A stretch of DNA of 33,158 bases, from positions 1-33,158 of the forward strand of contig JACIZP010000199.1 of the NCBI GenBank assembly GCA_014359355.1, read 5' to 3'. The stretch is from Calditrichota bacterium (GTDB taxonomy: Bacteria > Zhuqueibacterota > Zhuqueibacteria > JANLFK01 > Oleimicrobiaceae). Below the pieces are notes generated by a model, which was given only the letters and a program-made list of their open reading frames with translations, did not search any database and was not told the origin of the DNA. The position numbers and the translations under genes were made by a program. Each line of letters starts with the position of its first letter. Position 1 is the first letter of the stretch. Shown here piece after piece: positions 6,861-27,382 of this stretch.

Positions 6861-6899
6861 CCTCTTCACCTCGCTATGCAATGGATGACGACGTCATTC

Positions 6900-10723: not shown

Positions 10724-12898
10724 TCAGAAGCCACCTTGCAGACCAACGAAAAAGGTGCGCATGGGCATAAGGTTGCTTTCCATGGGCGCATAGTTGTACT
10801 GCAGCAGGTTGTTCACCCCTGCGCGCAATACGACTTTGCCCAGCTCCACACCAAAACGGAGGTCCACGAACTTCATCGGCACCCGCTCGTTGATGGGGTA
10901 GACCTTGACTTTGTCGATCTTGCTCGCGTAGCGGTAGTCGATTTCGCCTTGCAGCCGGCCCACGCGCAGATCGGCTCTCACCGTGCTGAGCACTTTGGGC
11001 CGGTAGGTGAGCGACTCATTCCACTTGACGTCGCGCGGGTCCATGGCGGTGGTGCTGAGGTGCAGTCCAGCGGTCCATCTGCGGTGCAGGAGGCGAAACG
11101 GCACGCTGGCGTTGGTGGTGGCCTCCACCCCGCAGACCCTGGCACGCGTCACGTTGCGAAACTGGATCTGCCCGCGAATCAGATCCAAGTGCGCCTCGAT
11201 CATGTCCCAGTACTCGTTGTCAAAAAACGAGACGTCCACATTCCAGTCGCGCGTGAGGTATTGGCGGAAGCCGAGGTCATAGGCCCACGAGCGCTCGGCG
11301 CGGATACCGGGATTGGCCTTGATCTTGAAGTTCATCACCGTTAGCTCGAGGTAGCGCTCCACGATAGTTGCCGCGCGGAAGCCGCTCCCTACCGAAGCGC
11401 GCAGGCTGGTGTTCGCCCAGGGCTGCCAGTTCACGCCAAGGCGAGGGCTGAACAGGTCCTCCTTCAGCCCGCCGATGATCTGGTAGCGATCGTAGCGCAG
11501 GCCACCGGTTAGACGGAGGTTGTCGCGCACCCGCCACTCATCCTGCACATAGGGGCCCACGAAAAAGCCCCGATGGCTGCCAAAGTACTTAGTGCTGCCC
11601 GCGTCGTGCTGGTACTGCACGCCGCCGGTAATAGTGTGGCGGTCGTGCGGCAGCCAATCTGCCTGGAGCTCGAATCCCTGTCCCCACGCCGGATTGAAAT
11701 TGGCCTCCGGGCCGAACTGATTGCCCATGAGCGTGCGCACCAACGAGCCTCGCACATGCACCGCCACCCGCGCGGAAAAGGGGACCACCACTTTGGCGTA
11801 ACAGGCCAGCTGGTTGGTTGCCGCCCGATTGCCCAGGTTCGCCTCGTCCACCTCGTAGGGGTCGTTCTGCCCTTTCCACTGGACGAAAAAACCACGCTTG
11901 ATGTAGCTGTAGGCCGCGTAGAGTGTCCACCGTACGTTGTTGCGAAAGCGATAGTCGGCGCGACCGGTGAGGTTGTATTTTTGAAAGTCGCCCAGTTGCG
12001 TGTAGCCGGTGGACATGAAGCGCCCTGCCGAAAGCCTGAGGCCCAGCGGCCCAAAGCTCCGGCTGTAGCTCACGTCTTCGCGCGTGTAGTGCAGCCGGTC
12101 GGGGTCGGTCCAGCGCCACTCATCGTAGTAGGGCCGATCGTATTTGCCTGCGGTCCACGAAAAGAGTAGTTGCCCAGCGGGCGAGGGCGACTTGGTGATG
12201 ACGTTGACCACCCCACCTAAGGCCGAGGCGCCCCAAAGCGTGGAGCCGGCCCCCTTCAGGACTTCGATCTGCTCGATGTCCAAGGGCGGCAACATGTCCC
12301 AGTTGAACTGCCCGGTATCGCTGGCGTAGACCGGAACCCCGTCCAGCAGGAGCAGGACCTTGTTGCCTGCGCCAAAGGTGTAGCCGGTGGAGCCGCGGAT
12401 GTTGATTTGCTCGCCGATAAAATTGACCCCGGGCGCCGTCTCCAATGCCTCGATGAGATTGGTGGCGCTGCGCCGCTGGATGTCGCGCGCGCTCACCACG
12501 GAAATGGACACCGCGGCCTGATCGAGCTGCTGCTGCGCCTTGCCAGCCACCACGACTATGGGGTCGAACTCAATGGTGGCAGGCTGCAGGGAAAAGGTGA
12601 GGCGCGTCTCCTGCCCGTCGACCACCTTCACCCCTTCGCGGGTCACCGCTCGGTAGCCGATCATCGAGGCGCGCACGGCATAAGTGCCAGGTGGCAAGTG
12701 AGCCACAACAAAGTGCCCCTCGCGGTCGGCGCTGGCCCCCCTGGTAGTGCCCAACACCTGCACATTGGCGCCAGGTAGCGGCTTGCCGCTCTCGCTGTCC
12801 ATCACCGTGCCAGCCATGCTCCCCACCCCGGCATGGCCAACACGCACGGCGGCCAAGGCTACACCACACACGAGAAGCAAGCTGTAGAGCGCGCGCAT
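10724..12898 (-). CDS. TonB-dependent outer-membrane receptor with N-terminal carboxypeptidase-regulatory-like domain
   Basis: This 724-residue receptor starts at 12898 (MRALYSLLLVCGVALAAV, signal peptide) after GGGAGAGGGAGAG. Residues about 28-110 form a carboxypeptidase-D regulatory-like beta-sandwich (GTVMDSESGKPLPGANVQVL to LPPGTYAVRASMIGYR). A TonB-box-like FDPIVVVAG leads into the plug (EALETAPGVNFIGEQINIRG, VLLLLDGVPVY, IEQIEVLKGAGSTLWGASAL, GGVVNVITKS). The rest is a 22-strand-type barrel ending in an aromatic (VGLQGGF). It imports a ligand across the outer membrane using TonB energy. No SusD-like partner is present, so a polysaccharide SusCD pair is unlikely; siderophore, cobalamin or another small ligand is possible. 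It lies 19 bases after the upstream lipoprotein gene. Confidence 0.95.
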   Translation of the reverse strand: MRALYSLLLVCGVALAAVRVGHAGVGSMAGTVMDSESGKPLPGANVQVLGTTRGASADREGHFVVAHLPPGTYAVRASMIGYRAVTREGVKVVDGQETRLTFSLQPATIEFDPIVVVAGKAQQQLDQAAVSISVVSARDIQRRSATNLIEALETAPGVNFIGEQINIRGSTGYTFGAGNKVLLLLDGVPVYASDTGQFNWDMLPPLDIEQIEVLKGAGSTLWGASALGGVVNVITKSPSPAGQLLFSWTAGKYDRPYYDEWRWTDPDRLHYTREDVSYSRSFGPLGLRLSAGRFMSTGYTQLGDFQKYNLTGRADYRFRNNVRWTLYAAYSYIKRGFFVQWKGQNDPYEVDEANLGNRAATNQLACYAKVVVPFSARVAVHVRGSLVRTLMGNQFGPEANFNPAWGQGFELQADWLPHDRHTITGGVQYQHDAGSTKYFGSHRGFFVGPYVQDEWRVRDNLRLTGGLRYDRYQIIGGLKEDLFSPRLGVNWQPWANTSLRASVGSGFRAATIVERYLELTVMNFKIKANPGIRAERSWAYDLGFRQYLTRDWNVDVSFFDNEYWDMIEAHLDLIRGQIQFRNVTRARVCGVEATTNASVPFRLLHRRWTAGLHLSTTAMDPRDVKWNESLTYRPKVLSTVRADLRVGRLQGEIDYRYASKIDKVKVYPINERVPMKFVDLRFGVELGKVVLRAGVNNLLQYNYAPMESNLMPMRTFFVGLQGGF

Positions 12899-12917
12899 CT
12901 CTCTCCCTCTCCCGAAC

Positions 12918-13793
12918 CTACGGCTTGGCCTTGGCCCAGTCAACAAAGATATCCACCCCCTTCTTCGTCTCACCGGCCTTGATGCTCAGCTTTCCCGGCT
13001 CACCTGGGGCGCTCGGGTCTTCGTAGATGCCGAGCACGCGATAGTCGGTCAGGCTGGCCCGCTCCGGCAGCCAGAAGACAGCCACGTACTCCACCGTCCC
13101 ATGCCGCACCGGGAGCACGTAATGGTAGGCGTTCTTCTGGGCATCGAACTTCTCGGATTCTGGGCCTACGGAAAAGTCGATGGACTTGAGCAGAGTCAGG
13201 TACTCGACATTCACCTCAGGCTTGCGCACATAGGCGGCAACCGCCGTGGCCAGCGTGTTGCCAGGGAAGGGCCCGTTGAAATAGAGAGTCCCCTCGATGC
13301 TCGCGTCGCGGTCCACCCGACTCCAGTTGGCACGCAGGTCGATTTCAAAGACCGGCTCCTCCTTGGTGATGTCGAATCCCAAGGGCAGCAGGTTGTTGGT
13401 GGCATCCAGGGGCAGGGCAAGGACATCAGCGAGATTTGACTTGGTCTCGGTGTTGTACCACCACAGGCTGATGGCCTCGTAATGGCCGTAAGGGAGACCC
13501 ATCTCCGCCATCACCGTGTCGCGCACGGCATCCCATTTGAAGGGGAGGCTATTGGGGCTGTGGTAGAGCTCATTGATGGCGCGCGGCGGAAACTTGGGGG
13601 CCACAACCAAGTAGATGCCCTGCGTGTTCTTGGGCGGGGGTCCACCGTAGAACAGCACCCTTGCCCGCACCATGCCCGGCAACGGGGCGATGCCGTGCTC
13701 AACCTCACAGGAGAGCGCAGCCAGCAGGGCAGCCACGCCGATGACGGCGCTGGCGAGCACAACGCCCCTGACTGCACCACGGGGGATAGTCAT
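12918..13793 (-). CDS. Exported protein of unknown function, possible lipoprotein
   Basis: I do not recognise a family for this 291-residue protein. It starts at ATG 13793 with an N-terminal hydrophobic segment (VVLASAVIGVAALLAALSC), ending in a cysteine that could be lipidated, although leucine at -2 makes a weak lipobox. The mature part is rich in beta-type sequence: VRARVLFYGGPPPKNTQGIY, LPYGHYEAISLWWYN, and IKAGETKKGVDIFVDW near the end, which looks like a small Ig-like or carboxypeptidase-regulatory-type sandwich. It lies 20 bases after the upstream sorting-domain gene and 19 bases before the TonB receptor, so it may act with that receptor at the cell envelope. Confidence 0.8.
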   Translation of the reverse strand: MTIPRGAVRGVVLASAVIGVAALLAALSCEVEHGIAPLPGMVRARVLFYGGPPPKNTQGIYLVVAPKFPPRAINELYHSPNSLPFKWDAVRDTVMAEMGLPYGHYEAISLWWYNTETKSNLADVLALPLDATNNLLPLGFDITKEEPVFEIDLRANWSRVDRDASIEGTLYFNGPFPGNTLATAVAAYVRKPEVNVEYLTLLKSIDFSVGPESEKFDAQKNAYHYVLPVRHGTVEYVAVFWLPERASLTDYRVLGIYEDPSAPGEPGKLSIKAGETKKGVDIFVDWAKAKP

Positions 13794-13813: not shown

Positions 13814-15595
13814 TCAGCGAACGAGTAGCACTTTAGTACTGCTGGACCGCCCGGCACCGCGCAACCAGCACGTGTAGACACCCGGGGGCAGCAGGTTCCC
13901 TTCGGAGTCGCGGCCGTCCCAGTACACCTCGTGCTTCCCTGGGGCGAACTCGCCGGCAGTAACGGTGCGCACGAGACGACCTTTCACGTCCACTACCGTC
14001 AAGGTCAGGTGCTCATATCCGGCCGCCTCAAAGCGCAGTCTGGCGCCCAGCGCGGCAGGATTCGGAAAGGCGGGCAAGAGCCGAAACTGCGCAGGTGTCT
14101 GAGGGGTTTCAGTGGCCACACCGCTGGGATACGACACTGCCCGCGCCGCAACCTTGACCGGGTGCTGGATAATAAAGGCCAACTTCTCCGCCTCGCTGCG
14201 GGGCAAATTGGCCGGCAAGAAGTAGGCGACAAAGCCCAACTCCAAGTTCACGCTATCCTGGCCGCTCCCCCGGAAGACAATGCCATAGTCGCCGTAGGAG
14301 ACGCCGTCACCGGTGTCGCCGCCAGCGGTGCCGTCGGCCACGCCTCCCTGCTGGCTATCGTGGTAGTAGAGGGCAATGCTCTGCCAGGTGGTGTCGCGAA
14401 AAGTGCCCATGGTGAACATGCTGCCCTGCGGGCCGGTGACCAGGCCCCACTCCCGAATGGGGAGTTGGATCTGGCTATTCACCACATCTGGCACCCCGTC
14501 GATCGGCACACCGGCGTTGAAGCGGTTGTGGAAGCGCATGCCGACGGCGTTGGCGTTGAAATCCCACGACTGTCGGAGGAGATCCATTTCGATGTAGATG
14601 TCATTCTCGGTGTGAAACGCGGCCTTTAGCTTCTCCGGATCCAAATTGGCGCCACCCACCACCGCAGCCGAAAACGGGTAGAAGTACCCCTTGACGTAGA
14701 ATGCCACCTCGTGGAGCAGTATCACGCCAAACTTGATCGTCTGCCGAGCGGTGCGCACCAGTCGCACCACCGGTCGCGCAGTGTAGCCAAAGTAGTAGCG
14801 ACCCGCCTCGTGGGCCTGGTAGAGGTGCAGGTTGTCACGCTCGTTGGCAGCTGGGGCTCCGCCGAGACCGACTGTAAACGTCATCAACCCAAAAAAGTCC
14901 ATGTAGCCGACGAAGCGGATCTTTTGCGTATCGAAAAAGTCCACGCCGCTGCCGTACGGAGGCTTGATAGCCACATCCTCCACCATGCCGTTGGTCGAGC
15001 TGAGGCGCAGACGGTACATGCTCGTCTCCACCTGTTGCTGGGCCGGGTCGAAGGCGAAGCCGTAGGGGCTGGGCACCTGCACGTTCAGGGTGGATGACTG
15101 GTAAAGGTAGGCGTAGCAACGCCAGGAGGGGTTCAGTGGGTCGGCGACCTCAATCTCCCAGCGCCGATGCTGGCGCGCGTCCGGGTCGTCCAGCCAGGCA
15201 TCATCCGGGGCACGGTCGCCCATGTCCCCCACCAGAAAGACGAGCTCGTCGTCGGCGTCAAAGGCCGGGTTCGCATCGGCGGCAATCACGTTGGCGCTGC
15301 CCACCTGCACGTAGAAATCGCGGCGGGCCTCTGCCACCTCGGGCTTGCACGGGTCCGCGGTGTTGTAGACTTCATCGATCTGGAAAGGCATCGGCCGCCA
15401 GACGCCGGTCCAGGCATCATAGGCGTACAGGTAGAGCTGCTCGATGGGCAGGTCCTCCCAGATCGGCATTTCGCGATGCTTGATCACCACCGGCTCGTAC
15501 CGCCGCTCCTGATAGAGCTGTTGCCCGCTGAGTTGCGCAACCAGCAGGCCGCATAGCAGCACTCCCACGGCACCCCATACTCTCCACGTGCTCAT
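13814..15595 (-). CDS. Secreted protein with C-terminal FlgD-like/sorting domain (paralogue of 15632-17320)
   Basis: This 593-residue protein starts at 15595 (MSTWRVWGAVGVLLCGLLVA) after GAGG; a GTG two codons earlier is the alternative. A signal peptide is followed by a large domain of unknown family: LYLYAYDAWTGVWRPMPFQI, ELVFLVGDMGDRAPDDAWLD, VGYMDFFGLMTFTVGLGG, YGDYGIVFRGSGQDSVNLEL. The last 90 residues hold an FPNPAALGARLRFEAAG block, then VVDVKGRLVRTV and YWDGRDSEGNLLPPGVYTCW. This is the FlgD-Ig-like C-terminal type common on secreted proteins of FCB and KSB1-like bacteria. The next gene upstream encodes a clear paralogue, 30 bases away, so the pair arose by tandem duplication. Function is unknown; co-transcription with a TonB receptor suggests a cell-surface role. 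Confidence 0.85.
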   Translation of the reverse strand: MSTWRVWGAVGVLLCGLLVAQLSGQQLYQERRYEPVVIKHREMPIWEDLPIEQLYLYAYDAWTGVWRPMPFQIDEVYNTADPCKPEVAEARRDFYVQVGSANVIAADANPAFDADDELVFLVGDMGDRAPDDAWLDDPDARQHRRWEIEVADPLNPSWRCYAYLYQSSTLNVQVPSPYGFAFDPAQQQVETSMYRLRLSSTNGMVEDVAIKPPYGSGVDFFDTQKIRFVGYMDFFGLMTFTVGLGGAPAANERDNLHLYQAHEAGRYYFGYTARPVVRLVRTARQTIKFGVILLHEVAFYVKGYFYPFSAAVVGGANLDPEKLKAAFHTENDIYIEMDLLRQSWDFNANAVGMRFHNRFNAGVPIDGVPDVVNSQIQLPIREWGLVTGPQGSMFTMGTFRDTTWQSIALYYHDSQQGGVADGTAGGDTGDGVSYGDYGIVFRGSGQDSVNLELGFVAYFLPANLPRSEAEKLAFIIQHPVKVAARAVSYPSGVATETPQTPAQFRLLPAFPNPAALGARLRFEAAGYEHLTLTVVDVKGRLVRTVTAGEFAPGKHEVYWDGRDSEGNLLPPGVYTCWLRGAGRSSSTKVLLVR

Positions 15596-15631
15596 AGGCA
15601 CCTCACTGCCAATCGCTGCGCCCCCGTGAGC

Positions 15632-17320
15632 TTAGCGCAACAGCAACATCTTGCGCACCAGGTCTCCACCTTCCGTACGGAGCATCGCCAGGTACACGCC
15701 GGAGGGGACCTCTGCGCCAGCCTCGTCGCGGCCGTCCCACTCCACCGCCTGGGTGGACCCGCCCGCACCGCTCAGCCTGAAGCGGCGCACCAGCCTGCCC
15801 GTGCCATCGAGGATCTGGAGCTCAGCAGAGGCGCGTGCCGGCAGCTCCACTTGCAGCCTGGTCCGCGGATTGAACGGATTCGGGTAGTTCTGGTGAAGCG
15901 CCCAACCCGACGGGACACGGTCCGCTTGCCCAGCGGCTACGCCTGACATGTAGCTCTCCGCCTGCACGTTCACCGTCATGCCGGTCTCGACCCACTCCTT
16001 GAGCGCCGCCGCTACCGTCGGCGACTGATATGCCGGCAAGAAGTAGCAGGCAAATTCGAAGCTGAGCAGCACCGGGAAGGTCTCGCCGATGAAGACGTAG
16101 CCAAAATCGCCGTAGGAGGCGCCATCGCCAGTATCGCCACCGGAGAGATACTCATGCGTGCCGTCTGCGGAGCCGCCTGCGGCATTGTCCCAGTAGTAGA
16201 GCCCCTGTTGAGAGCCGAGGCGAGGCACCTTGGTGACGGTCACGATCGTGCCTTGCTCGCCGGTGACCATGGCCCAATTCAGTCCAGGCGCTTCCACGGT
16301 GGTCACGGCAGTATCGGGCACACCATCCACAACCAGGCCTTCGGAATTGTAGGCGTTGTAGAAGCGCATCCCCGAGGCCTGCGGCGTCAGGTCCAGTGAC
16401 TGGCGCACCAGATCCAGCGTGATGACCACGTCTTCCGGCAGGTTCACGCTGTCGATTGCGCCGCCAAAGCTGACGCTGTACGGATAAAAGTACGTGGTGA
16501 GCGGAAAGCCGACAGGAAGCTGCCACCCCAAGACCACAAGTCCCACCCACTCCCGAACGATCACGCGCACCGGCCCGACAACCACCTTGGTGGAATCCGT
16601 GGCCCTGCGGAAAAAGTCGCGCTCATTGCCAGGAGGGTTGCCGCCTTTCCCCAAGTAGAACGAAAGGGCCTGGTACCTGAAGTAACCCACGATGCGCAGC
16701 TTCTGCGTATCCACCAGGTGCACGCCGGAGCCGCCACCTTCCGGTTTAATCCGTACATCGCCGATCAAGCCGGAGGGAGCAAAACCGACCGCATAGCTGC
16801 TCGTCTCCACCCACTCAGAATCTGGCGCAGCCCACTTCCACGAGTCGACATAAGGAGTCGGCGCGGGCCCGGTGATGGTCGAGCTCACGTAGAGGTAGGC
16901 CCAGGCTCTTTGCGCGGGATCCGCCCCGTCGGCCACCTCTATCGCAAAGCGAGGATGGCTTCTGGACTCCACGTCATCGATCCACGCCTCGGGTGGTGCC
17001 TCGTCACCCAAGTCGCGGACCATAAACACCAGTTGGTCGAAGCCGTCGAAAAGAAGGTTATGGGGAAAAGTGAAAAAATCCGTGGAGTCTTTCTCGTCGA
17101 TCTGGAAAGGAATCCGTTCCCACACGCCTCCTTGGCTGCGATAGGCGAACAGGTACAGGTGTTCAACTGGGGTCCCATGGAGTTCCGGAAAAGAGTTCGC
17201 GTCGACGACCACCGGCTGCCATGGGCGGTCCAGTGTCTTGGCCCTCTGCGCAAATACGGGCAGGGCCGCCGCCACGAAAAGGGCACATGCCCCCACCACG
17301 ACAAATTTTGGCCGTCTCAT
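15632..17320 (-). CDS. Secreted protein with C-terminal FlgD-like/sorting domain (paralogue of 13814-15595)
   Basis: The 562-residue product has a signal peptide (MRRPKFVVVGACALFVAAAL, cleavage likely after VFAQ). ATG 17320 follows GGAGGTCAAGAG, a strong ribosome-binding site. The body aligns by eye with the downstream paralogue: LYLFAYRSQGGVWERIPFQI, QLVFMVRDLGDEAPPEAWID, VDTQKLRIVGYFRYQALSFY, SGGDTGDGASYGDFGYVFIG. The C-terminus contains NYPNPFNPRTRLQVELP, LQILDGTGRLVRRF and EWDGRDEAGAEVPSGVYLAM, the FlgD-like sorting type. It is probably the first gene of the six-gene set extending to 8515, with a 129-base gap to the DUF4870 gene before it. The enzymatic or binding role of the main domain is not recognised. 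Confidence 0.87.
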   Translation of the reverse strand: MRRPKFVVVGACALFVAAALPVFAQRAKTLDRPWQPVVVDANSFPELHGTPVEHLYLFAYRSQGGVWERIPFQIDEKDSTDFFTFPHNLLFDGFDQLVFMVRDLGDEAPPEAWIDDVESRSHPRFAIEVADGADPAQRAWAYLYVSSTITGPAPTPYVDSWKWAAPDSEWVETSSYAVGFAPSGLIGDVRIKPEGGGSGVHLVDTQKLRIVGYFRYQALSFYLGKGGNPPGNERDFFRRATDSTKVVVGPVRVIVREWVGLVVLGWQLPVGFPLTTYFYPYSVSFGGAIDSVNLPEDVVITLDLVRQSLDLTPQASGMRFYNAYNSEGLVVDGVPDTAVTTVEAPGLNWAMVTGEQGTIVTVTKVPRLGSQQGLYYWDNAAGGSADGTHEYLSGGDTGDGASYGDFGYVFIGETFPVLLSFEFACYFLPAYQSPTVAAALKEWVETGMTVNVQAESYMSGVAAGQADRVPSGWALHQNYPNPFNPRTRLQVELPARASAELQILDGTGRLVRRFRLSGAGGSTQAVEWDGRDEAGAEVPSGVYLAMLRTEGGDLVRKMLLLR

Positions 17321-19073: not shown

Positions 19074-19432
19074 TGGTGGAGACGGTGGGAATCGAACCCA
19101 CGTCCGAAAGCCCGGTCTTAGAGACCTCTACATGCTTAGCCTGTTGCTTGCTCTCGCCTGCTCCAGGCGCAACCGGCAAGGCCCGGAGCTGGCCAGCTCA
19201 GCGCAGGTTCGCCAAGGACGCCTGAGCATCATCCTCGGCTAGCTCACTGTCAGCGACGCCCCGGCACGGGCCCAGTGGGCCAAGCCCGCAAGGGACGTGG
19301 CTGCACTAATTAGGCAGCCAGAGCATACGCATTGTCTGCGTTTACATTTAGCTTCCAGCGGTTTTACGAGGTACTGGAACCTCGGCATGCAGTCTCTAAC
19401 CCCGCGACTCCCGTCGAAACCATGTCGTCCCC
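19074..19432 (-). ncRNA. ssrA: tmRNA (transfer-messenger RNA)
   Basis: This 359-base RNA rescues ribosomes stalled on broken messages and tags the peptide for degradation. The 5' end reads GGGGACGACATGGTTTCGAC and the 3' end GTGGGTTCGATTCCCACCGTCTCCACCA in two parts: T-arm GTGGGTTCGATTCCCAC, then CGTCTCCACCA. The first seven bases pair with CGTCTCC (one G-U) to form the acceptor stem, and CCA is encoded. The tag frame (bases 19310-19339) reads GCA GAC AAT GCG TAT GCT CTG GCT GCC TAA, giving ADNAYALAA, with TGTAAAC just before the resume codon. The YALAA end is the classic protease-recognition tail. The choice of GCA as resume codon is by analogy with known tmRNAs. Confidence 0.96.
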
Positions 19433-20604
19433 ATGATTAACATGCAGCGAGAGATAACGGGCCGCGTCGGGATTCTCAGCTTGCGACAAAAATATACAAC
19501 GGCGAGGGCAAAGAAGCAAGGTCTTTTTCGGGTGGAGCAGAAAGGCAAGACCCGGGAAGCGTGCACCCCTGCCTCGGTGAGTACTGCTCAGCGACCTCTG
19601 CCATTCTGGTTCTCGTTCCGCGTGCTCAGGTATTGCCGACCCGTCAAGACCGTAGACGCACGGGAGCACCTGCCGCGCAGTGGGTTGGCTCCCCGTGCGA
19701 AAGAACAAGGCGCCATGCCAGCATCTTGTTCCTCCGCGCCGCTGAGTTTTCTTGCTACTCGATGCACAAGAGCCTCCTCACCACCGAGGGAGAGCTGCCC
19801 GGCGGCGGAGATGGCTCCCGTTGCCAGGCCCCTAGCGCCCTGGGGCGGCTCGCACGCGAATGTCTGCCGCCCGAACTTGCAAAAGCCAGCGGCGGAAGCT
19901 GCACCTCAGCGTCCACCAGAAGCACAGGGGTGGAACTCTAACATTTGTCACGCAGAGACATCGACCAGACAGCGGGGCTCTCGGGCCAGATTGCGGAGAG
20001 GCGTGCCAGCATGGTGGTGGGACGAAAGGCGCTAAGCGAGAGGCTGCCGCCGCTGTCCACTGCCGCAACACGGCGCCAGAAGGTCATGCGGGGCACGACT
20101 GACCATACCACATAGGGCCTCCCCAAGCCATAGAACCTCTCCGCGGGCAGCCACTGCTGCCGCCAATGCCTGGCGCGAAAAAAAACGTGCCCTGGGATTC
20201 TGCCGGACCAAAGACAATCACCCTCACCGGCGTAGCCTCGTCTCGGAAAAGCAAACCCGCGACCTGTCGGTGGGCACGCTCCCCTCGCGGCCATGCCAGA
20301 CGCCCATTGCACGGCCCACACCCTCACATCCTCGCATCTTGCAGCCGCAGAACCTATGGCCTGGGTGCGCCGGCCTCGCCCTCTAGAGCTCTCTCTTGGC
20401 CGAAAACCTACTCGGAGAGCTTCGCCACGAAGGGCAACCGAGGAAGCTCCTCCCTGCTTCCTGGCCCCCTCTTGCTGACAAGGCAGAGACGAGCTCCCAA
20501 CCTATGGCTATTCTCACATGCCGAGGCGTTGTTGGTTGGCCACGCGCGGGCGATCCCACTTGTCCAGGTCCACCCACATGAGCCGCGCTGGCGCCATTCT
20601 GGGC
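19433..20604. other. 1.17-kb region without an intact gene; contains a decayed propeller-gene fragment
   Basis: No frame here has a signal peptide, domain or ribosome-binding site. Bases 19870-20110 are a relic of the neighbouring propeller genes (see separate entry). The stretch next to 19432 should contain the tmRNA promoter, but no strong -35/-10 pair is evident. Bases 20115-20604 show nothing I can recognise, although the gene order of the array would predict a decayed S-type gene there. Confidence 0.6.
19870..20110 (-). pseudogene. Decayed fragment of a PQQ-like beta-propeller lipoprotein gene
   Basis: Bases 19911-20110 align collinearly with 21439-21644 inside the intact propeller gene. 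Shared blocks are GTCC-CCAGAAGCACAG-GG, TAACATT-GTCAC-CAGA, GATTGCG-A-AGGCG, GGTGGGAC, and GACCATACCA at the end; the spacing between first and last block is 190 versus 196 bases. The similarity is patchy, with many substitutions and small indels, and no frame stays open, so this is an old inactivated copy. Weaker similarity may extend left to about 19870. Confidence 0.7.
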
Positions 20605-21861
20605 CTACTCAATACAGTACAATCCCCGCTCGCCTAGCACGTAGAGCCGGCCTTCGGCGGAGATGGCGGCCCCTGTGAGCCCAATCCCACGCTCGGGAAG
20701 CTCGCAGGTGAACATGCGGTGACCGGACCGATCGAAAGCCGAGACGAAACGGTTGGGGTAGACGAGATAACATGTCCCCTCACAATCTACCACCACTTCT
20801 CCTCCGTGGCGCCCGAGCCCACTCAACACAGGAACTCTCCATTTCAGGTGCCCCGCGCAATCGAAGCACAGCAGCTCATCTTTCTCCCCACGCACATAGA
20901 GACTCCCGTCCACTCCCAAGGCCAGGTTCGCCCCGGGGAGCACCGGGTAATCACCTTCCCAGCGTAGCACCCCCTGGTCCGTCACGGAACAGAGTACATA
21001 GCCAATCTCCTCCCTCAGCCTGGAATAGTAGAGATTGCCCTCACTATCAACCACTGGATAACAAGAATCCCAGGAGGCGGGTGCCTCCCACAGCCGAGTC
21101 CCAGTGTGGGCGTCCAGGGCGACGAGGGAACCGGGGGAAGCGGAGCCTGTTGTCATCAGGTACACGACATCGCCGGCCGGCGACATGGATACCCACCACC
21201 CTTCGTTCCACTCCCCCAAGGTGAACTGTGTCTCGCTATTGGTCCACAGCAGGTTTCCCCCGCGCTGAACGGCAAGAGCGGGAAAAGGGTAGTAGTAGGC
21301 TACGATGTAGAGGGTCCCGTCGGGCCCCACACCTGGCTTCGTAGTCCTGTTTGCCCCTTCGATTTGATACCTCGAGAGCTCCGTGCCGTCCGAAGCAAAC
21401 TCAATCCCGTACCTCCAAGCCAGCACCAGTACCCGACCGTCCGCCAGAAGCACAGTGGCGGAACTGCCGTAACATTCGTCACACAGATGCCTCGACCACA
21501 TGACGGTGCCGTCGGGTGCGATTGCGTAAAGGCGCGTCTCCTTCGTGGTGGGACAATCTGTGGTAAGGTAGATGGTGCCGTCGCCGCCCACAACCACTCC
21601 GAGGGGGGGCCAGCTCCACCCGCAGAGCACCAGTGACCATACCACCCTCCCTGCCCTGGGTCCAGGATACCTCCCCCGGTGCGTACCCTGAGGATCGGCA
21701 CCCATCACCGGCCAGGGGCTATCCGCTATGCTCGGCCAGGGGATCTCCTGCTGCGGGCACAGGCCAGCACGCTCCACCGGCCCCAAAGGAGTCTTGTCCC
21801 GCGTACATGACACCAGGGCACAGGTCCCCAGGACTGACAACAAGAATGCTACCCTTTTCAC
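20605..21861 (-). CDS. PQQ-like beta-propeller lipoprotein (copy P3)
   Basis: This 418-residue protein has a lipoprotein signal ending ALVSC (Cys19), then TRDKTPLGPVERAGLCPQQ, a block shared almost exactly with the two other P genes. The rest is a series of about 40-residue blades with the pattern DGTIYL... LYAIAPDGTVMW, typical of PQQ/BamB-like propellers: GVGPDGTLYIVA, LVALDAHTGTRLWEAP, VVDSEGNLYYSRL, LALGVDGSLYVRGEKDELLC, AISAEGRLYVLGERGLYCIE. Known relatives bind PQQ or act as scaffolds; tryptophan-docking residues are irregular here, so enzymatic activity is doubtful. It lies 55 bases after the S-type gene at 21917-23140 and probably shares its transcript. It is the last intact gene of the array. 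Role unknown, likely at the outer membrane. Confidence 0.87.
   Translation of the reverse strand: MKRVAFLLSVLGTCALVSCTRDKTPLGPVERAGLCPQQEIPWPSIADSPWPVMGADPQGTHRGRYPGPRAGRVVWSLVLCGWSWPPLGVVVGGDGTIYLTTDCPTTKETRLYAIAPDGTVMWSRHLCDECYGSSATVLLADGRVLVLAWRYGIEFASDGTELSRYQIEGANRTTKPGVGPDGTLYIVAYYYPFPALAVQRGGNLLWTNSETQFTLGEWNEGWWVSMSPAGDVVYLMTTGSASPGSLVALDAHTGTRLWEAPASWDSCYPVVDSEGNLYYSRLREEIGYVLCSVTDQGVLRWEGDYPVLPGANLALGVDGSLYVRGEKDELLCFDCAGHLKWRVPVLSGLGRHGGEVVVDCEGTCYLVYPNRFVSAFDRSGHRMFTCELPERGIGLTGAAISAEGRLYVLGERGLYCIE
21730..21804 (-). repeat. 75-base conserved block in P3 (matches parts of P1 and P2)
   Basis: Encodes the TRDKTPLGPVERAGLCPQQE region. It is essentially identical to 24271-24345 and 26865-26939, while the signal peptide of P3 differs, so the shared tract in this copy is shorter. 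Confidence 0.8.
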
Positions 21862-21916
21862 AGGCCCTCCTCGGCCGGCAAAAGGCCGCGCCTACTCGCT
21901 CCTGCCGCCCGCCAGC

Positions 21917-23140
21917 TCATTTGACCACCGCCACCTTCTGGCTCACCCCCCTGTCCCTAAACACCAGACGCACCACATAGAGACCGGAAGGCAGCGCATC
22001 TAACGAATACGAGACCCGATGCACCCCTGCGCCCTCGACGCCCCGCGCCAGCTCCGCCACCTCAGCCCCTCCCAGGTCGTAGAGCGCAAGCTGCACCCTC
22101 CCCTCACGCGGCAGACAATACCATACCCCCACCACCGCATTGCACGGATTGGGGGAGCACCATAGCCCCACGCTCCGCACCTGCACCTGCCCACTCACAT
22201 CGGCCGCAGGCTCCTCACCCTCTCCAGGCAACACCTTGTACGGGTTGCCCCGCACCGCTACCTCGTCAGAAGGTGGCGACTCCGGCGACTCCCCAGTTGT
22301 GGCCGTGCAGTAGTAGAGGTACCTGCCGCCCCCGGGCCACATCATCACACTGTTGTCGGTCCAGGAAAAAGGCAGCGGCGTGCCAGGCCCGTAGGAGAGG
22401 CCAGAGGCCACATAATAAAAGGGGCCAAAGTTCTCACTGCGGTAGATGCTGTAACTGAAACAGTAAGGCCAGTCCATAAGCTCGTTCGGTGCCTCAGGCC
22501 AGTACCATGTAAACGTGGGATTCTCACCGGCTCGCCCGTTGTTGACGCAGGTAAAGTCCTGCGGGCCGGTTGGCCGAAAGGGCCACTGGTTCGGTGCGCT
22601 TCTCCCCCAGGCGTCCCAGATGTTGCCCTTCAATGGCTGGTACGGACCGTGCTGATGGTGGCTCCACCCTAGGCTCCACTCCCCAGTGCCGGCGGTGTCG
22701 GCATAGCGAATATACAGGTCAGGCTCGGGCCAGTACCCCTCCGCCCAATCAGCGTCCCGCAGGTCGAGGCAAAACTCCGTGTCCGGGTAGCCCTCTGGCA
22801 TGTCCCACCTAAAGTTGTACAATCCCCAGGCGAGGCTATAGCTGTCCATGAGCTTCGGCGACCTGAAGTTGTCTTGTGACTGACTGTTACCAGTGCCCCT
22901 CACCTGCACCCTTGCGAACCCATCGGTCAGCCGACATTCATCCCCGTCCCAAGTCCATCTGATGTTATCGCGCCGATCAATGCTGGCAGTCACACTCCAT
23001 CCCAGGGTGGAGTCCTCAAGCCCCTCTACCACCATCACTATTTCCCCATAAGCGAGTACGGTGACTTGTCCTCTGGTCGGCACCACCGAGCAGGCTACCA
23101 GGCCTGCGGCGATGGCGCGGTAAAGATGTTTCGACAGCAT
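21917..23140 (-). CDS. Secreted protein with C-terminal sorting-type domain (copy S2)
   Basis: The 407-residue protein starts at ATG 23140 (MLSKHLYRAIAAGLVACSVV) and has a signal peptide cleaved near PTRGQ. The N-terminal half (residues 25-200; QVTVLAYGEIVMVVEGLEDS, LTDGFARVQVRGTG, DLYIRYADTAGTGEWSLGWS) has no family I recognise but is shared with the broken S copy at 24592-25736. A fibronectin-like section follows (FTWYWPEAPNEL, YLYYCTATTGESPESPPSDE). The end is a secretion-type domain: WCSPNPCNAVVGVWYCLPRE, LALYDLGGAEVAELARG, LPSGLYVVRLVFRDRGVSQK. It starts 11 bases after the propeller gene P2 stops, so the pair is co-transcribed. Probable surface or secreted partner of the propeller lipoprotein (inference). 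Confidence 0.85.
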   Translation of the reverse strand: MLSKHLYRAIAAGLVACSVVPTRGQVTVLAYGEIVMVVEGLEDSTLGWSVTASIDRRDNIRWTWDGDECRLTDGFARVQVRGTGNSQSQDNFRSPKLMDSYSLAWGLYNFRWDMPEGYPDTEFCLDLRDADWAEGYWPEPDLYIRYADTAGTGEWSLGWSHHQHGPYQPLKGNIWDAWGRSAPNQWPFRPTGPQDFTCVNNGRAGENPTFTWYWPEAPNELMDWPYCFSYSIYRSENFGPFYYVASGLSYGPGTPLPFSWTDNSVMMWPGGGRYLYYCTATTGESPESPPSDEVAVRGNPYKVLPGEGEEPAADVSGQVQVRSVGLWCSPNPCNAVVGVWYCLPREGRVQLALYDLGGAEVAELARGVEGAGVHRVSYSLDALPSGLYVVRLVFRDRGVSQKVAVVK

Positions 23141-23151
23141 GAGAGTGCCTC

Positions 23152-24402
23152 CTACTCAATGCACCAGATTTGTGCGTCCCCTACCACTATCAGACGCCCC
23201 GGGCACGGTATGGCCATGGCGTGCAGTGCCCAAGCATTTCCTGGCATCTCACTCACGAAGAGTCGGCGTCCATCCCGGTCAAAGGCTTCGACACTTCTGT
23301 CCGCCGCGAAGTAGACCACCCCTTCGGAGTCCACCACCAGGGCACCCTCAGAGCACAAGCCGAAAAGCGGCCTCACCGACCACAGCAGATGCCCCTCACA
23401 GTCAAAGCACAGCAGGTCGCCGCCCCGCTCTGCGGGCGCATAGACTCTCCCGTCCCCAGCGATGGCAACGTTTGTGTAAGGGCACACGGGCCGGGAGCTT
23501 TCCCAGCGCAAAGAGCCATCGGGTCCAAAGGAGGCCAGCACTGGCTTGCCGGCATCTCCTTGCTTCACGCAGTAGACGTTGCCATAGGCATCCACTGCCG
23601 GAGAGGCTGCGTGCCAACCAACGGGGACCTCCCAGACAATGACGCCAGTCTGCGCATCGAACGCCGTCAACTGCGGTGGCCCAGAGACCTCCTCTACCAG
23701 GGCGTACAAGCGTTGCCCGTCGGGCGACATACTCAACCAGGTTCCGGTCGCCTTCCGGATGCCGGCCTTCTCCGTGTTCGTCCACACCACCTGCCCCTGC
23801 GGGTTCACGGCCAGGAAGAGGTGGTCCTCCCTCGGGTGAAGATAAATGGTCCCATCCAAACCTACACCAGGTCCCGTCAGCTCGTAGGAGCGACCGAGGC
23901 AGAAGGGAGTGCCTACCTGACCGTCCCGAGTGTACTCATAGAACGCTCCATCCCTACACCCAATGACGAGGACGCTCCCGTGAGCCAAGAGGATGGGGCT
24001 CGAACTGTCCTGGTACTTCGGCCCCAACGGGACACGGGCACGCTCTCTTCCGTCCATGCCTATGACGAAGAGGGTCAATTGCAGCGCCCCGGTAACGCGC
24101 GCGGCCCAGTAGATGGTGCAGTCTCCAGCCACAGCCACATTGACGCACTCGCCGTCCATCCGCACGGGAGCAAAGCCCCACACCACCTTCCCCAGGCGGG
24201 CACCGGGATACTTACCTCTGGCTGTGCACTGCGGGTCTGCCCACATCATCGGCCAGGGGCTATTCGCTATGCTCGGCCAGGGGATCTCCTGCTGCGGGCA
24301 CAGGCCAGCACGCTCCACCGGCCCCAAAGGAGTCTTGTCCCGCGTGCACCACACCAGCGCCCAGGACACGACCACAAACGACAGGAAAACAACCCTCCGC
24401 AT
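23152..24402 (-). CDS. PQQ-like beta-propeller lipoprotein (copy P2)
   Basis: Start at ATG 24402 (MRRVVFLSFVVVSWALVWC) follows GGGGAGG; product 416 residues. Residues 19-44 repeat the CTRDKTPLGP...PQQEIPWPS block of the other P genes. Blade motifs include VAVAGDCTIYWAAR, GVGLDGTIYLHP, LTAFDAQTGVIVWEVPVGWH, AVDAYGNVYCVKQG, VAIAGDGRVYAPAERGGDLL and VVDSEGVVYFAADRSVEAFD. The lipobox position -1 is tryptophan (LVWC), whereas P3 has serine (LVSC), so lipidation of this copy is uncertain. A promoter lies about 55-82 bases upstream and the S2 gene follows after 11 bases. Only the N-terminal block is strongly conserved between P copies; the blades have diverged widely. Confidence 0.87.
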   Translation of the reverse strand: MRRVVFLSFVVVSWALVWCTRDKTPLGPVERAGLCPQQEIPWPSIANSPWPMMWADPQCTARGKYPGARLGKVVWGFAPVRMDGECVNVAVAGDCTIYWAARVTGALQLTLFVIGMDGRERARVPLGPKYQDSSSPILLAHGSVLVIGCRDGAFYEYTRDGQVGTPFCLGRSYELTGPGVGLDGTIYLHPREDHLFLAVNPQGQVVWTNTEKAGIRKATGTWLSMSPDGQRLYALVEEVSGPPQLTAFDAQTGVIVWEVPVGWHAASPAVDAYGNVYCVKQGDAGKPVLASFGPDGSLRWESSRPVCPYTNVAIAGDGRVYAPAERGGDLLCFDCEGHLLWSVRPLFGLCSEGALVVDSEGVVYFAADRSVEAFDRDGRRLFVSEMPGNAWALHAMAIPCPGRLIVVGDAQIWCIE

Positions 24403-24437
24403 AACGCCTCCCCAAGAAAGGCAACCTCCCCCAGCTC
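24271..24437 (-). repeat. Near-identical 167-base repeat at the 5' end of P2 (matches 26865-27031)
   Basis: This stretch covers the leader, ribosome-binding site, signal peptide and conserved N-terminal block of P2. By eye it differs from the P1 copy at only a handful of positions, and both are 167 bases long. About 75 bases of it (24271-24345) are also essentially identical in P3 at 21730-21804. Downstream coding sequence is much less similar. Confidence 0.85.
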
Positions 24438-24456
24438 CTGAGACCATTGCCAATCC

Positions 24457-24484
24457 AATATGAGGAAAATCTCCGCTCTGTCAA
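24457..24484 (-). promoter_or_regulatory. Predicted sigma70-type promoter of the P2-S2-P3 unit
   Basis: On the minus strand TTGACA (24479-24484) is followed after 16 bases by CATATT (24457-24462), or after 17 bases by ATATTG. The -35 is perfect and the -10 matches 4 of 6. It lies between the terminator at 24525-24568 and the start of P2. Confidence 0.65.
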
Positions 24485-24524
24485 GCTCTTTCTCGCCCCA
24501 GGGCTAGCTTCTCCCCCAAAATGC

Positions 24525-24568
24525 AAAACCCCGCCCTTGCCAGGAAGGCCGCCACGGCAAAGGCGGGG
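24525..24568 (-). terminator. Intrinsic terminator after the P1-S1 unit
   Basis: On the minus strand a 13-base stem with 12 pairs (24556-24568 with 24529-24541; CCCCGCCTTTGCC with GGCAAGGGCGGGG) and a 14-base loop is followed by TTTTGCATTTT. It lies 23 bases after the stop codon of the broken S1 gene, which is what a rho-independent terminator would look like. Confidence 0.85.
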
Positions 24569-24591
24569 TGAGCACAAGCCCACCCCCAGCG

Positions 24592-25736
24592 CTATCTCAC
24601 CACCAGCACCTTGGCACTCAGCGCCCGGCCCCCATGCACCATCCGCACCAGGTAGGCCCCCGTGCTCAACGCCCGCCCCTCCAGCTTCACCTGATGCTCC
24701 CCAGCTCGGTGCGGACCCTCTGCAAGGCGCGCCACCTCCCGGCCGCAAAGATCATACAGGCTCACCTTCACCTCCCCCTCCTCGGCCACCACGTACCGTA
24801 CCATGGCCCTGGGGTTGCAAGGGTTGGGGTAGACCACAACCGATTCTCTCCATTCGCCTCCCCCCTGCAGGAAAGCTCCCGAGTCCACCACGCGCTTGCC
24901 TAACTCCCCTACAATACAAGCCTGCTCGGAGTAGCCCGACTCGGGCCACCGATCGCTGGAAGCAGTGGCGCAGTACAGATACTCCACCCCAGAAGATCGG
25001 TTGATGACAACCTCCTCGTCGGTCCACTCCCTCTGGCTGAGCCCGGCAGCTACCCGCCGCCAGGACTGACGTTGTACCAGTAGCTGACCCCAGCCGGCTG
25101 CGGTTCGCCCCAGAAAAAGTGCGGGTTCTGACCATCCTCCCCCGCATTGGTACAGTAGAACCAGGCGGGCGGTGTCGGCTCGAACACCCCCACGACCTCC
25201 GGGCCCGGTCTCCCCACCCCCCAGAGGCCCCAAATGGTGGCCTCCCTGGGCAACTCGACCCACGGCCCCTCGCTTTGCAGCCGGTATTCGAACCTCCTCA
25301 AGTCGTGGTTCCACCTAATGTAAAGGTCAATTGGGGAGGGATACGGAGGCTGCCGCAATGCCCAGCGCGGATCGGTCAGGTCCAGGGCAAACTCCTCCGC
25401 AGTGTCGAGCAGATCCGGGCAACAAAACCTGAATGAGTACCTCCCCCACGCCACATTGTAGGCACCAGGCTGCTCCTGCTCCGGACAATTGATCCCAACC
25501 CTCTGCCGCTCCTTGCTCCTTGCGAAGCCATACAGGTTGGTCAGTCTGTAGTCGGTCCACCACCGGGCAGCATCCCCCTCCCACTCCCACCACCAAGCAT
25601 AGCTGCCGGTCCCGGTGACCTTCAGAATAATCTCCCCGCGGATCCGCTCCCCGGCCGGCACAGTTGCCGGACACAATAACAGCAATCCCACGGACAGCGC
25701 CCACAGCGCTGCCACCCATAGCGAAGCCTAACTCAT
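24592..25736 (-). pseudogene. Broken S-type secreted protein gene (copy S1): TAG at codon 3 and a frameshift
   Basis: AGGAGGGATCC precedes ATG 25736, exactly where the S2 layout predicts a start (12 bases after P1 ends). The frame reads ATG AGT TAG, a stop at bases 25728-25730, and then continues as a good signal peptide (LWALSVGLLLLCPATVPAGE). The body is related to S2: GEIILKVTGTGSYAWWWEWE against GEIVMVVEGLEDSTLGWSVT, and LTNLYGFAR against LTDGFARVQ. That frame ends at TAG 25050-25052. Homology resumes in another frame (VAAGLSQREWTDEEVVI, YLYCATASS) and runs to a sorting-type C-terminus (VVYPNPCNPRAMVRYVVAEE to LSAKVLVVR). The offset fits loss of one base near 25053-25064. Two separate lesions argue for a true pseudogene, although the frameshift alone could be a sequence error. 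Weak restart at GTG 25715 is conceivable. Confidence 0.85.
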
Positions 25737-25748
25737 GGATCCCTCCTG

Positions 25749-26996
25749 TCACTTTATGCAGAGCAGGCGCGTGCCCACCGTGAGGTACATTCGTCCACGG
25801 TCGGATATGGCCCCGCAGACTCCCGACGCCCCACCGGTGGGGCACTCAAACAGGAGCTGACCGTCGCCGCCAAATGCATACATGTAGTGGCTCCCCATGA
25901 GAAGAAAGACGTTCCCCTGGCTGTCCCCCAAGATAGGGGTATTCGGACTGAACACATCGTGATCCGGATAGGCAACCGCCCAGCGCAGCTTCCCCTGGCA
26001 GTCTATGGAATACAGGCGCCACCAGTCGCACACATAGAGGTTCCCTCCCTTGTCCATGTGCATGTCGAGCCCGTAGAAGTATATGCCCTTCACCTCAGGG
26101 ATGTCACACTTCCAGCGCAGTCTCCCCTCTGGGGTGACCGAGACAATGTAGCACTCAAACCTGTCCTCCTCCAGTCCGTAGGAGTAGACGTTGCCCTCAT
26201 TGTCCACCAGCGGGGCCCAGTCTACGTCCCACCCTACCTTCACCTTCCACAGCAGCAAGCCGGTAGCCGCCGCCACCGCGCACAGGGTACTATCCCGTCC
26301 CCCCAGGTAGAGACGAGTCCCTTCAGGGGAGACGGCAATGGATGACCACCATCTGCAGTAGAAGCCGCAGTCCCCCCACGCCTTCCACCGCAGCCTGCCC
26401 GTTTTATCTATCGCGTGCAGGTACCCCTCGCTGTCGGCGAGGTAGATGGTGCCATCCAGCCCAATCGCCGGGCTGAACATCTCGAACATCCCAGAAGTTT
26501 TGTACTCCCACAGCACGTTGCCCTTGTTGTCCAGGGCCCAGAGGTAGCCCCAAATACCCGGCTCTCGATGCGACGTGCCAGCCGCAAAATAGATGATGTC
26601 GCCCGCCCCCACCACCACGCTGCCAAGGCTAATATACCCAGTGGGGAACTCCCACTTCAAGCTGCCGTCGGGATTGACGGCATACAGATGGTAATCGGCA
26701 AGGACGTAGATGGTGCCGTCCTCGCCGATGACCGGCGCGTTGAAAACACGTTCCCTGGTGGGCTGAAACACCCACTCCAGTCTCCCTTCCCTGGGGCCGG
26801 GATATCTTGCCCGGCCTGTGCATTGCATATCTCCATGGGGAGCCGGCCAGGGGCTATTGGCCAGGCTCGGCCAGGGGATCTCCTGCTGCGGGCACAGGCC
26901 AGCACGCTCCACCGGCCCCAAAGGAGTCTTGTCCCGCGTGCACCACACCAGCACCCCCGACACGACCACAAACGACAGGAAAACAACCCTCCGCAT
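25749..26996 (-). CDS. PQQ-like beta-propeller lipoprotein (copy P1)
   Basis: The 415-residue protein starts at ATG 26996 (MRRVVFLSFVVVSGVLVWC) after GGGGAGG; its first 19 residues differ from P2 only at two positions, and the shared CTRDKTPLGP block follows. Regular propeller blades are visible: VIGEDGTIYVLADYHLYAVN, PDGSLKWEFPTG, AIGLDGTIYLADSEGYLHAI, DKTGRLRWKAWG, VAAATGLLLWKVKVGW, LVDNEGNVYSYGLEED, ILGDSQGNVFLLMGSHYMYA and DRGRMYLTVGTRLLCIK. The lipobox again has tryptophan at -1. A strong promoter is 54-82 bases upstream of the start. The gene is followed after 12 bases by the broken S1 gene, so this copy may now act without an S partner from its own unit. Confidence 0.88.
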   Translation of the reverse strand: MRRVVFLSFVVVSGVLVWCTRDKTPLGPVERAGLCPQQEIPWPSLANSPWPAPHGDMQCTGRARYPGPREGRLEWVFQPTRERVFNAPVIGEDGTIYVLADYHLYAVNPDGSLKWEFPTGYISLGSVVVGAGDIIYFAAGTSHREPGIWGYLWALDNKGNVLWEYKTSGMFEMFSPAIGLDGTIYLADSEGYLHAIDKTGRLRWKAWGDCGFYCRWWSSIAVSPEGTRLYLGGRDSTLCAVAAATGLLLWKVKVGWDVDWAPLVDNEGNVYSYGLEEDRFECYIVSVTPEGRLRWKCDIPEVKGIYFYGLDMHMDKGGNLYVCDWWRLYSIDCQGKLRWAVAYPDHDVFSPNTPILGDSQGNVFLLMGSHYMYAFGGDGQLLFECPTGGASGVCGAISDRGRMYLTVGTRLLCIK

Positions 26997-27038: not shown

Positions 27039-27382
27039 CGTTTTATTCTAATATAACGGAGAAATGGCCACTTGTCAACGCTTTTGTGCTGGCCCCCGGG
27101 ATCGCAAGGCTGGTACCCCCGAGGTGCCGCGGCAGGCGGCCGGCTAGGCGGCAACAGGGCCCGCCCCACGAGGCCCAATCGAACTGTCCTTTCTCACCTT
27201 CGCACTCGGGGGACATTGCCGCCGGGGGCAATGTGTCCAGAACGGAGCAATCGTCACACCTGCCCAGGCTTCAGGCAGCAGAGGATCACGCGTAACGGAA
27301 GGTCTCTCCTGGCCCAGCTCTGGCGGCCATGCGCACAGCATGCTCTTGGAAACGCAAATGACACGGCGCCCGCGACGTCTCT
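27039..27382. other. 344-base intergenic region: P1 promoter, otherwise no gene
   Basis: Besides the promoter at 27050-27078 this stretch holds the 3' flank of the M28 peptidase gene. An imperfect hairpin (GGACATTGCC with GGCAATGTGTCC, 27211-27239) is present but lacks a U-run on either side. Short frames here have no supporting features. Confidence 0.5.
27050..27078 (-). promoter_or_regulatory. Predicted strong sigma70-type promoter of the P1-S1 unit
   Basis: TTGACA (27073-27078) and TATATT (27050-27055) on the minus strand are separated by exactly 17 bases; the -35 is perfect and the -10 matches 5 of 6. The P1 start codon is 54 bases beyond the -10. Confidence 0.8.

Follow-up and report, generated by a model that had tools for sequence, protein, structure and literature searches.

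The closest described systems to the locus analysed here are the Rhs and CDI loci, in which a constant part is joined to a variable module that spans the end of a gene together with its partner, displaced modules occur as orphans and the partner is kept once the effector part has been lost (PMC3967940). Rhs main and orphan genes recombine through a block of 522 bp that is 95% identical (PMC3967940). The TANFOR toxins of Bacteroidetes, which have been proposed to be linked to the T9SS, contain Fn3 domains and are encoded next to diverse partner genes; their constant domain is N-terminal and their variable part C-terminal (PMC7073777). In the antigenic variation of Anaplasma msp2 by gene conversion, conserved flanks surround a variable centre and broken copies are potential donors (PMC3338850). 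Exchange of modules is also found in a T9SS-bearing group, in the surface proteins of Porphyromonas gingivalis, where strains differ in the domain alleles of individual proteins (PMC5266723).

The present locus lies in a stretch of 33,158 nucleotides (hereafter, the window), which is contig C199 of a 3.79-Mb Calditrichota genome, G000, assembled in 395 contigs with an estimated contamination of 0.12%. It is an array of two linked genes: P, which encodes a propeller lipoprotein, and S, which encodes a secreted protein with a sorting tail. Like the Rhs and CDI loci, the array combines a constant part with a variable module that takes in both the end of a gene and the partner of that gene, contains displaced orphan modules and keeps one partner when the other is lost, and its constant blocks, of about 260-826 bp and about 80-99% DNA identity, compare with the 522 bp and 95% of the Rhs block. 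By this analogy, the array seems to work like Rhs block recombination. It differs from Rhs and CDI in that a Pfam scan of P and S found no Rhs, CDI or toxin domains, in that P and S are both chimeras, the leader being the constant part of P and the tail that of S, and in that P, a propeller lipoprotein and the candidate protector, precedes S. Compared with the TANFOR toxins, S has the inverse arrangement, a variable head at the N terminus and a constant sorting tail at the C terminus, and an NCBIfam scan of S2 and two of its relatives returned no match to the TANFOR domain (TIGR02542) at E<=0.01. The hallmark of gene conversion, that is, conserved flanks, a variable centre and exchange between copies, is present in the array, and broken copies accompany it as in msp2; the differences from msp2 are that one variable module spans two genes, that several units carry promoter-like sites and that no switching was seen. 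Contrary to the P. gingivalis case, the exchange would take place in a tandem array with a two-gene module. The array belongs to the broad kind of module exchange at surface or antagonism loci and not to a named family. Searches of the open-licence literature found no described system of this two-gene composition, and to our knowledge none has been described. The interpretation we favour, and consider reasonably probable, is that the locus is a recombining array encoding a matched surface-protein pair, diversified by the exchange of matched modules.

Gene content of the array beside the tmRNA gene

On the minus strand of the window, the genes follow one another as P1 (25749..26996), a broken S1 (24592..25737), P2 (23152..24402), S2 (21917..23140), P3 (20605..21861) and a decayed P relic (19768..20111), after which the tmRNA gene (19074..19432, minus strand, identified with ARAGORN and Rfam RF00023) forms the boundary of the array. 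A preliminary description of this DNA had given the same order and P-S gaps of 11-12 bases; all the genes that it named are present as stated, and the gaps measure 12 nt between P1 and the ATG of S1 and 11 nt between the stop of P2 and the ATG of S2. The decayed relic that it mentioned is also real, with the correction that it lies outside the interval assigned to the array (20605-26996): in tblastn searches, residues 73-164 of P3 match 20111-19854 (1.8e-8) and residues 376-414 match 19884-19768 (8e-5), and a stretch of 154 bp is 72% identical at the DNA level. S2 is intact, and P3 has no S behind it. The reading frame of S1 is damaged in at least two places. The ATG at 25737 runs into a stop two codons on and does not share the frame of the S1 body, and the frame breaks again in the Fn3 domain near 25060; the head (25715-25050) and the tail (25314-24592) are in different frames.

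Promoter-like sites were found on the minus strand upstream of P1 (TTGACA-17-TATATT, 27050..27078, 11 of 12 positions matching) and of P2 (TTGACA-16-CATATT, 24457..24484, 10 of 12), in both cases in or beside constant DNA. The region contains six sites of this kind against 1.4 expected, and the same scan found none for P3. Because of the sites in front of P1 and P2 and the start of S2 only 11 nt after the P2 stop, every P-S unit is probably expressed as a single transcript.

The P proteins are propellers of the PQQ_2/BamB type, with scores of 50-58 bits (58.3 for P1, 54.1 for P3) against a cut-off of 27.6, and the homology between P2 and P3 (E=1.7e-95) is well above chance. The AlphaFold2 model of P2 (pLDDT 83, pTM 0.83) has its structural matches among propellers with eight blades, for example Cake8, YxaL and BamB. 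The fold of P is the same as that of BamB and other PQQ-type propellers (YxaL), and BamB is likewise a lipoprotein; unlike BamB, P is multicopy, paired with S and provided with a constant leader. The assignment of P to BamB itself was rejected, since the TIGR03300 model gives 16.8 bits against a cut-off of 285.2. The lipobox cysteine is invariant among 31 homologues from several groups, and P is predicted to be anchored in the envelope by its lipid. The dN/dS of P bodies against those of the sister genome G001 is 0.22-0.40, and P has therefore been under purifying selection.

S is a secreted protein whose head is followed by an Fn3 domain and, at the C terminus, a sorting tail of the T9SS type. 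The model of S2 (pLDDT 73) contains a signal helix, an all-beta head, the Fn3 domain and the sorting domain. A Foldseek search with it returned Fn3 chains alone, at low TM, and the head is left without a named fold because only Fn3 structures were recognised. The sorting tail of S1 scores above the cut-off (30.7 against 27 bits) and that of S2 below it (16.1 against 27 in Pfam, 19.3 against 23 in NCBIfam), and two S relatives exceed the cut-off of 23 with 44.1 (L136) and 26.0 (L117). The genome encodes a T9SS translocon protein (SprA_N, 153.5 bits, contig C216), and the presence of SprA together with the sorting tails suggests that S is exported by a T9SS-like system. Genome-wide, G000 has 76 T9SS sorting-tail matches, several of them close to contig ends, and other repeated secreted families may therefore also break this assembly.

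Constant and variable blocks

Comparison of the DNA with itself revealed that the repeated segment is not the P-S gene pair; it consists of the Fn3 domain and tail of S, the spacer and the leader of the next P. These constant blocks alternate with variable blocks, made of the P propeller and the head of the S that follows, in which identity is roughly 42-68%. The block upstream of and within P1 (26844..27100, minus strand) includes the promoter-like site and the P leader, whose coding part is 26996-26844, and is 88% identical to 24503-24250 over 259 bp. A second block (24250..24840, minus strand) extends from the S1 tail through the spacer to the P2 leader, and an alignment of 663 bp between 24840-24209 and positions 2381-3036 of contig C6 of the same genome shows 79% identity. 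The S end and spacer are 93.6% identical across 753 bp between C6 and contig C154. The P leaders of the window share 92-96% of their DNA (P1 against P2 96%, P1 against P3 92%, and the P3 leader, 21861-21709 on the minus strand, 92-95% against the other two), whereas the P bodies share 47-51% (47-50% for P1), values close to the level of unalignable DNA in such global alignments, a floor that we estimated ourselves. S heads within genomes are 41-68% identical, and for some pairs the identity over the initial 120 bp of Fn3 is as high as 93-98%.

The same mosaic was found in at least four unrelated genomes in addition to G000. The median identities of the upstream, leader and body segments are 99/95/50 in ChocPot, 74/90/47 in UBA2242, 81/90/52 in OSL_B.mb.4 and 87/88/48 in ERR2206774, and the contrast between leader and body is weak in TS1B10-2 (L108; 67 vs 46). 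The preliminary description had read the locus as the repeated duplication and decay of a two-gene cassette. What holds of this reading is a conserved linked pair in arrays that expand and decay, with copy number varying between species; what has to be given up is the simple P-S cassette, as the repeat begins in the 3′ part of S and continues into the 5′ end of the P that follows, the constant ends are homogenised and the inner parts differ together.

Short reads might misjoin near-identical constant blocks or mix strains and thereby create such a pattern, and the arrays are indeed often located at contig ends (C6, C154, C124, G043, G054, UBA2242). An assembly artefact is nevertheless very improbable in our judgement: the window is one 33-kb contig from a genome with 0.12% estimated contamination, the pair or array lies inside contigs of 58 kb in the related genome G002 and 308 kb in G001, the pairing of P with S falls within variable DNA, where misjoining of repeats is impossible, and the pattern recurs in independent assemblies. 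Assemblies from short reads tend to break at arrays of this kind, whose number is therefore likely to be underestimated.

Exchange between copies and co-variation of P and S

The two parts of a P gene can have different nearest relatives. The body of P2 is closest to a G001 gene (77%), whereas its leader is closest to those of P1 and P3 (96% and 95%; 84% for G001). Similarly, the body of gene C6a is closest to G001 (83%), whereas its leader is closest to the genes of C154 (97-98%; 84% for G001). In the array of G001, a unit resembling C6 and one resembling P2-S2-P3 meet within a constant block, and three S copies of UBA2242 (L117, L110, L105) have a nonsense codon in Fn3 in common that is absent from two others. 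The discordance of leaders and bodies, the join in G001 and the shared nonsense codon show exchange between copies; judged from these sequences, leaders and bodies have different histories, that is, they have recombined.

The variable parts of P and S change together. In a set of 32 P-then-S units, the distances between P bodies correlate with those between the downstream S heads with r=0.74 overall and r=0.90 within genome or genus (50 within-group comparisons, permutation within groups p=0.0002). This relation is confined to the downstream S head: the P body against the upstream S gives a within-group r=-0.06 (16 comparisons), and when each of these S genes is instead compared with its own P, r is 0.93. 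The co-variation supports the P body and the S head as partners, and a physical interaction of the ligand/scaffold type is suggested by it; it falls short of proof of partnership because the linkage of contiguous DNA alone could produce it. Surface-protein diversification or a ligand/scaffold pair, as put forward in the preliminary description, remains a fair class of explanation.

According to the interpretation that we favour, a unit would start with a constant block that contains a promoter-like site and the P leader, with its lipoprotein signal and linker, would continue with the P propeller body and the following S head as one variable module, and would end with the constant block that encodes the rest of S, its Fn3 domain and its sorting tail. 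Entire variable modules would be swapped within the array through homologous recombination of constant blocks, and incoming DNA is a probable further source of recombination. New combinations of P body and S head would in this way come as a matched set while the parts responsible for anchoring and export are unchanged. With P held in the envelope by its lipid and S exported by a T9SS-like machine, the S head would engage the P body, and the pair may be exposed at the surface and act in cell-cell or phage recognition. A wider proposal, which we put forward tentatively as possible rather than probable, is that the arrays represent a system of recognition or antagonism that is widespread in FCB-group bacteria and has so far gone undescribed. 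Specificity would lie in the pair of the envelope-anchored propeller and the partner exported by the T9SS, and, with a recombination unit that covers the 3′ part of one gene plus the 5′ part of its neighbour, matched specificities would always move together. If the array is a specificity system, it would provide a new route to change matched surface partners while keeping the match, and the exchanged DNA would be the inner halves of two neighbouring genes, with both anchoring ends constant.

A different explanation for the same mosaic is antigenic or phage-receptor variation, in which a changing surface is beneficial in itself, predators, phage or host factors maintain the diversity, broken copies act as silent donors and binding between P and S is not required. 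This explanation, which is possible but somewhat doubtful, agrees with the constant flanks around a variable centre, the many broken copies, the gene conversion between copies, of which the shared S nonsense codon of UBA2242 is an example, and the different modules that sister species carry at one chromosomal site. By itself, however, it leaves unexplained why changes in the P body go along with changes in the downstream S head, and, since the P1 unit and the P2 unit are both preceded by a promoter-like site of their own, a single expression site is not evident.

Copy number, spread and uneven loss of the two genes

The seven P homologues and every S body of G000 are located on three contigs, C199, C6 and C154. 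Contig C6 (5.8 kb) has the succession P, S, P, S, with both S genes flagged in our annotation, and C154 (4.5 kb) carries a P-S-P-S remnant; the ends of the two contigs have an exact overlap of 37 bp. Another contig, C124, begins within an S tail and adjoins a beta-galactosidase gene, and the array of G001 adjoins the same gene. C6 and C154 probably belong at this beta-galactosidase locus, because the G001 array sits there. Behind the last S of C6, at positions 5337-5522 (L042), there is a fragment that resembles the C-terminal end of an outer-membrane receptor.

The tmRNA locus could be compared in three congeners. G000 has three P, two S and the relic, G002 one intact pair and G001 a P relic only, which corresponds to three, one and zero intact P genes. 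The change in copy number expected by the preliminary description is thus found at a single locus, in a comparison between species with one genome per species. The relic of G001 (L086, 9939-10500) contains many stops and the rest of the array is gone; a few kb from this locus, at L086 626-4882, translations indicate type I restriction-modification-like genes and a small transposase.

Homologues of P and S do not occur mostly apart: in 63 genomes of the class, whose named members are MAGs of candidate division KSB1, all strong S-body matches lie beside P or at a contig end, and some P genes occur alone. A wider search of the phylum added one weak match, confined to about 40 positions of Fn3. 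Scanning for the leader motif identified 65 P loci, in MAGs of KSB1, Neomarinimicrobiota, Calditrichota, the Ignavibacteria type and related groups. Many of these loci have an S next to P, and several (L103, L106, L108, L112, L114, L117, L125, L128, L147) have alternating arrays. Alternating P/S arrays are present in KSB1, Ignavibacteria-type and Neomarinimicrobiota genomes, and the array design is not peculiar to G000 but shared with other groups at the phylum level. The P of Ignavibacteria-type genomes often has a sorting tail of its own, and S lies before it. Two loci have tandem P genes and no S, three in succession in L130 and two copies of 92% identity in L121; 141-bp repeats surround these genes. 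The groups that carry the array are mostly uncultured and include MAGs of Melioribacteraceae; because this family has cultured members, the system is testable. A phage origin was rejected, since a search of viral contigs found no relative.

One genome, G041 (L087), has a TonB-type receptor and a PorV/PorQ-family protein after the P-S pair. These neighbours, together with the purifying selection on P bodies, would suit an ordinary substrate-binding pair, for instance a glycan or metallophore surface complex, that was duplicated and specialised, the mosaic being a by-product of gene conversion where the sequences are still alike. This is unlikely, because the TonB neighbour occurs in one genome only, Pfam and NCBIfam scans found no carbohydrate-binding or catalytic domain in P or S, and sister species hold different modules at the same locus instead of conserved specialised copies.

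The two genes are lost unevenly, S preferentially. By our own count, P is intact and S clearly broken in 18 units and the reverse is found in none, a count from which units were excluded if the start of S was uncertain or a contig ended there; outside the genus, the loci had been detected by way of P, and this biases the count toward intact P. Within the genus, where both proteins were used for the search, P is intact in 10 of 12 cases and S in about 3 of 10. Lone P genes are common and lone S genes were not found in the 63 genomes of the class, and in G001 both partners have decayed. With so many S genes broken next to a retained P, S is often dispensable. This and the lone P genes speak against the interpretation that we favour, as do the decay of both partners in G001, the sorting tail of S2 below the cut-offs, a head for which the scans and Foldseek recognised neither fold nor function, and the weak contrast between leader and body in TS1B10-2.

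This asymmetry fits an array of effector and immunity genes, in which S is a T9SS-exported antagonist with an active head, P its cognate immunity protein anchored in the envelope and orphan immunity genes accumulate after the death of S. The intact P genes beside broken S genes, both in the 18 units and within the genus, and the lone P genes would all be accounted for, as would the cognate co-variation of the P body and the S head, and Rhs loci recombine likewise through their 522-bp, 95% identical block (PMC3967940). We nevertheless hold this explanation to be rather unlikely. Pfam and NCBIfam scans recognised no toxin domain in S, neither PADLOC nor the TANFOR model gave a match, propellers of about 370 residues would be unusual immunity proteins, and outside the genus the search through P favoured intact P. 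Antigen or receptor variation is the other main alternative, and the data do not distinguish between these readings. A known anti-phage defence system was rejected as well, PADLOC having returned no match to any known or candidate defence protein at E<=0.01.

Other genes of the window were noted as well. Two neighbouring minus-strand genes at 13814-17320 encode proteins with FlgD_ig tails, about 560-595 aa long, that seem to be a further tandem pair of related secreted proteins. A TonB-dependent receptor with a CarboxypepD_reg domain is encoded at 10724-12973, and the receptor after the P-S pair of G041 (L087) is similar to it. Finally, positions 3483-6881 encode a protein of 1132 aa with a Golvesin C-terminal domain and a weak match to M1 peptidases.
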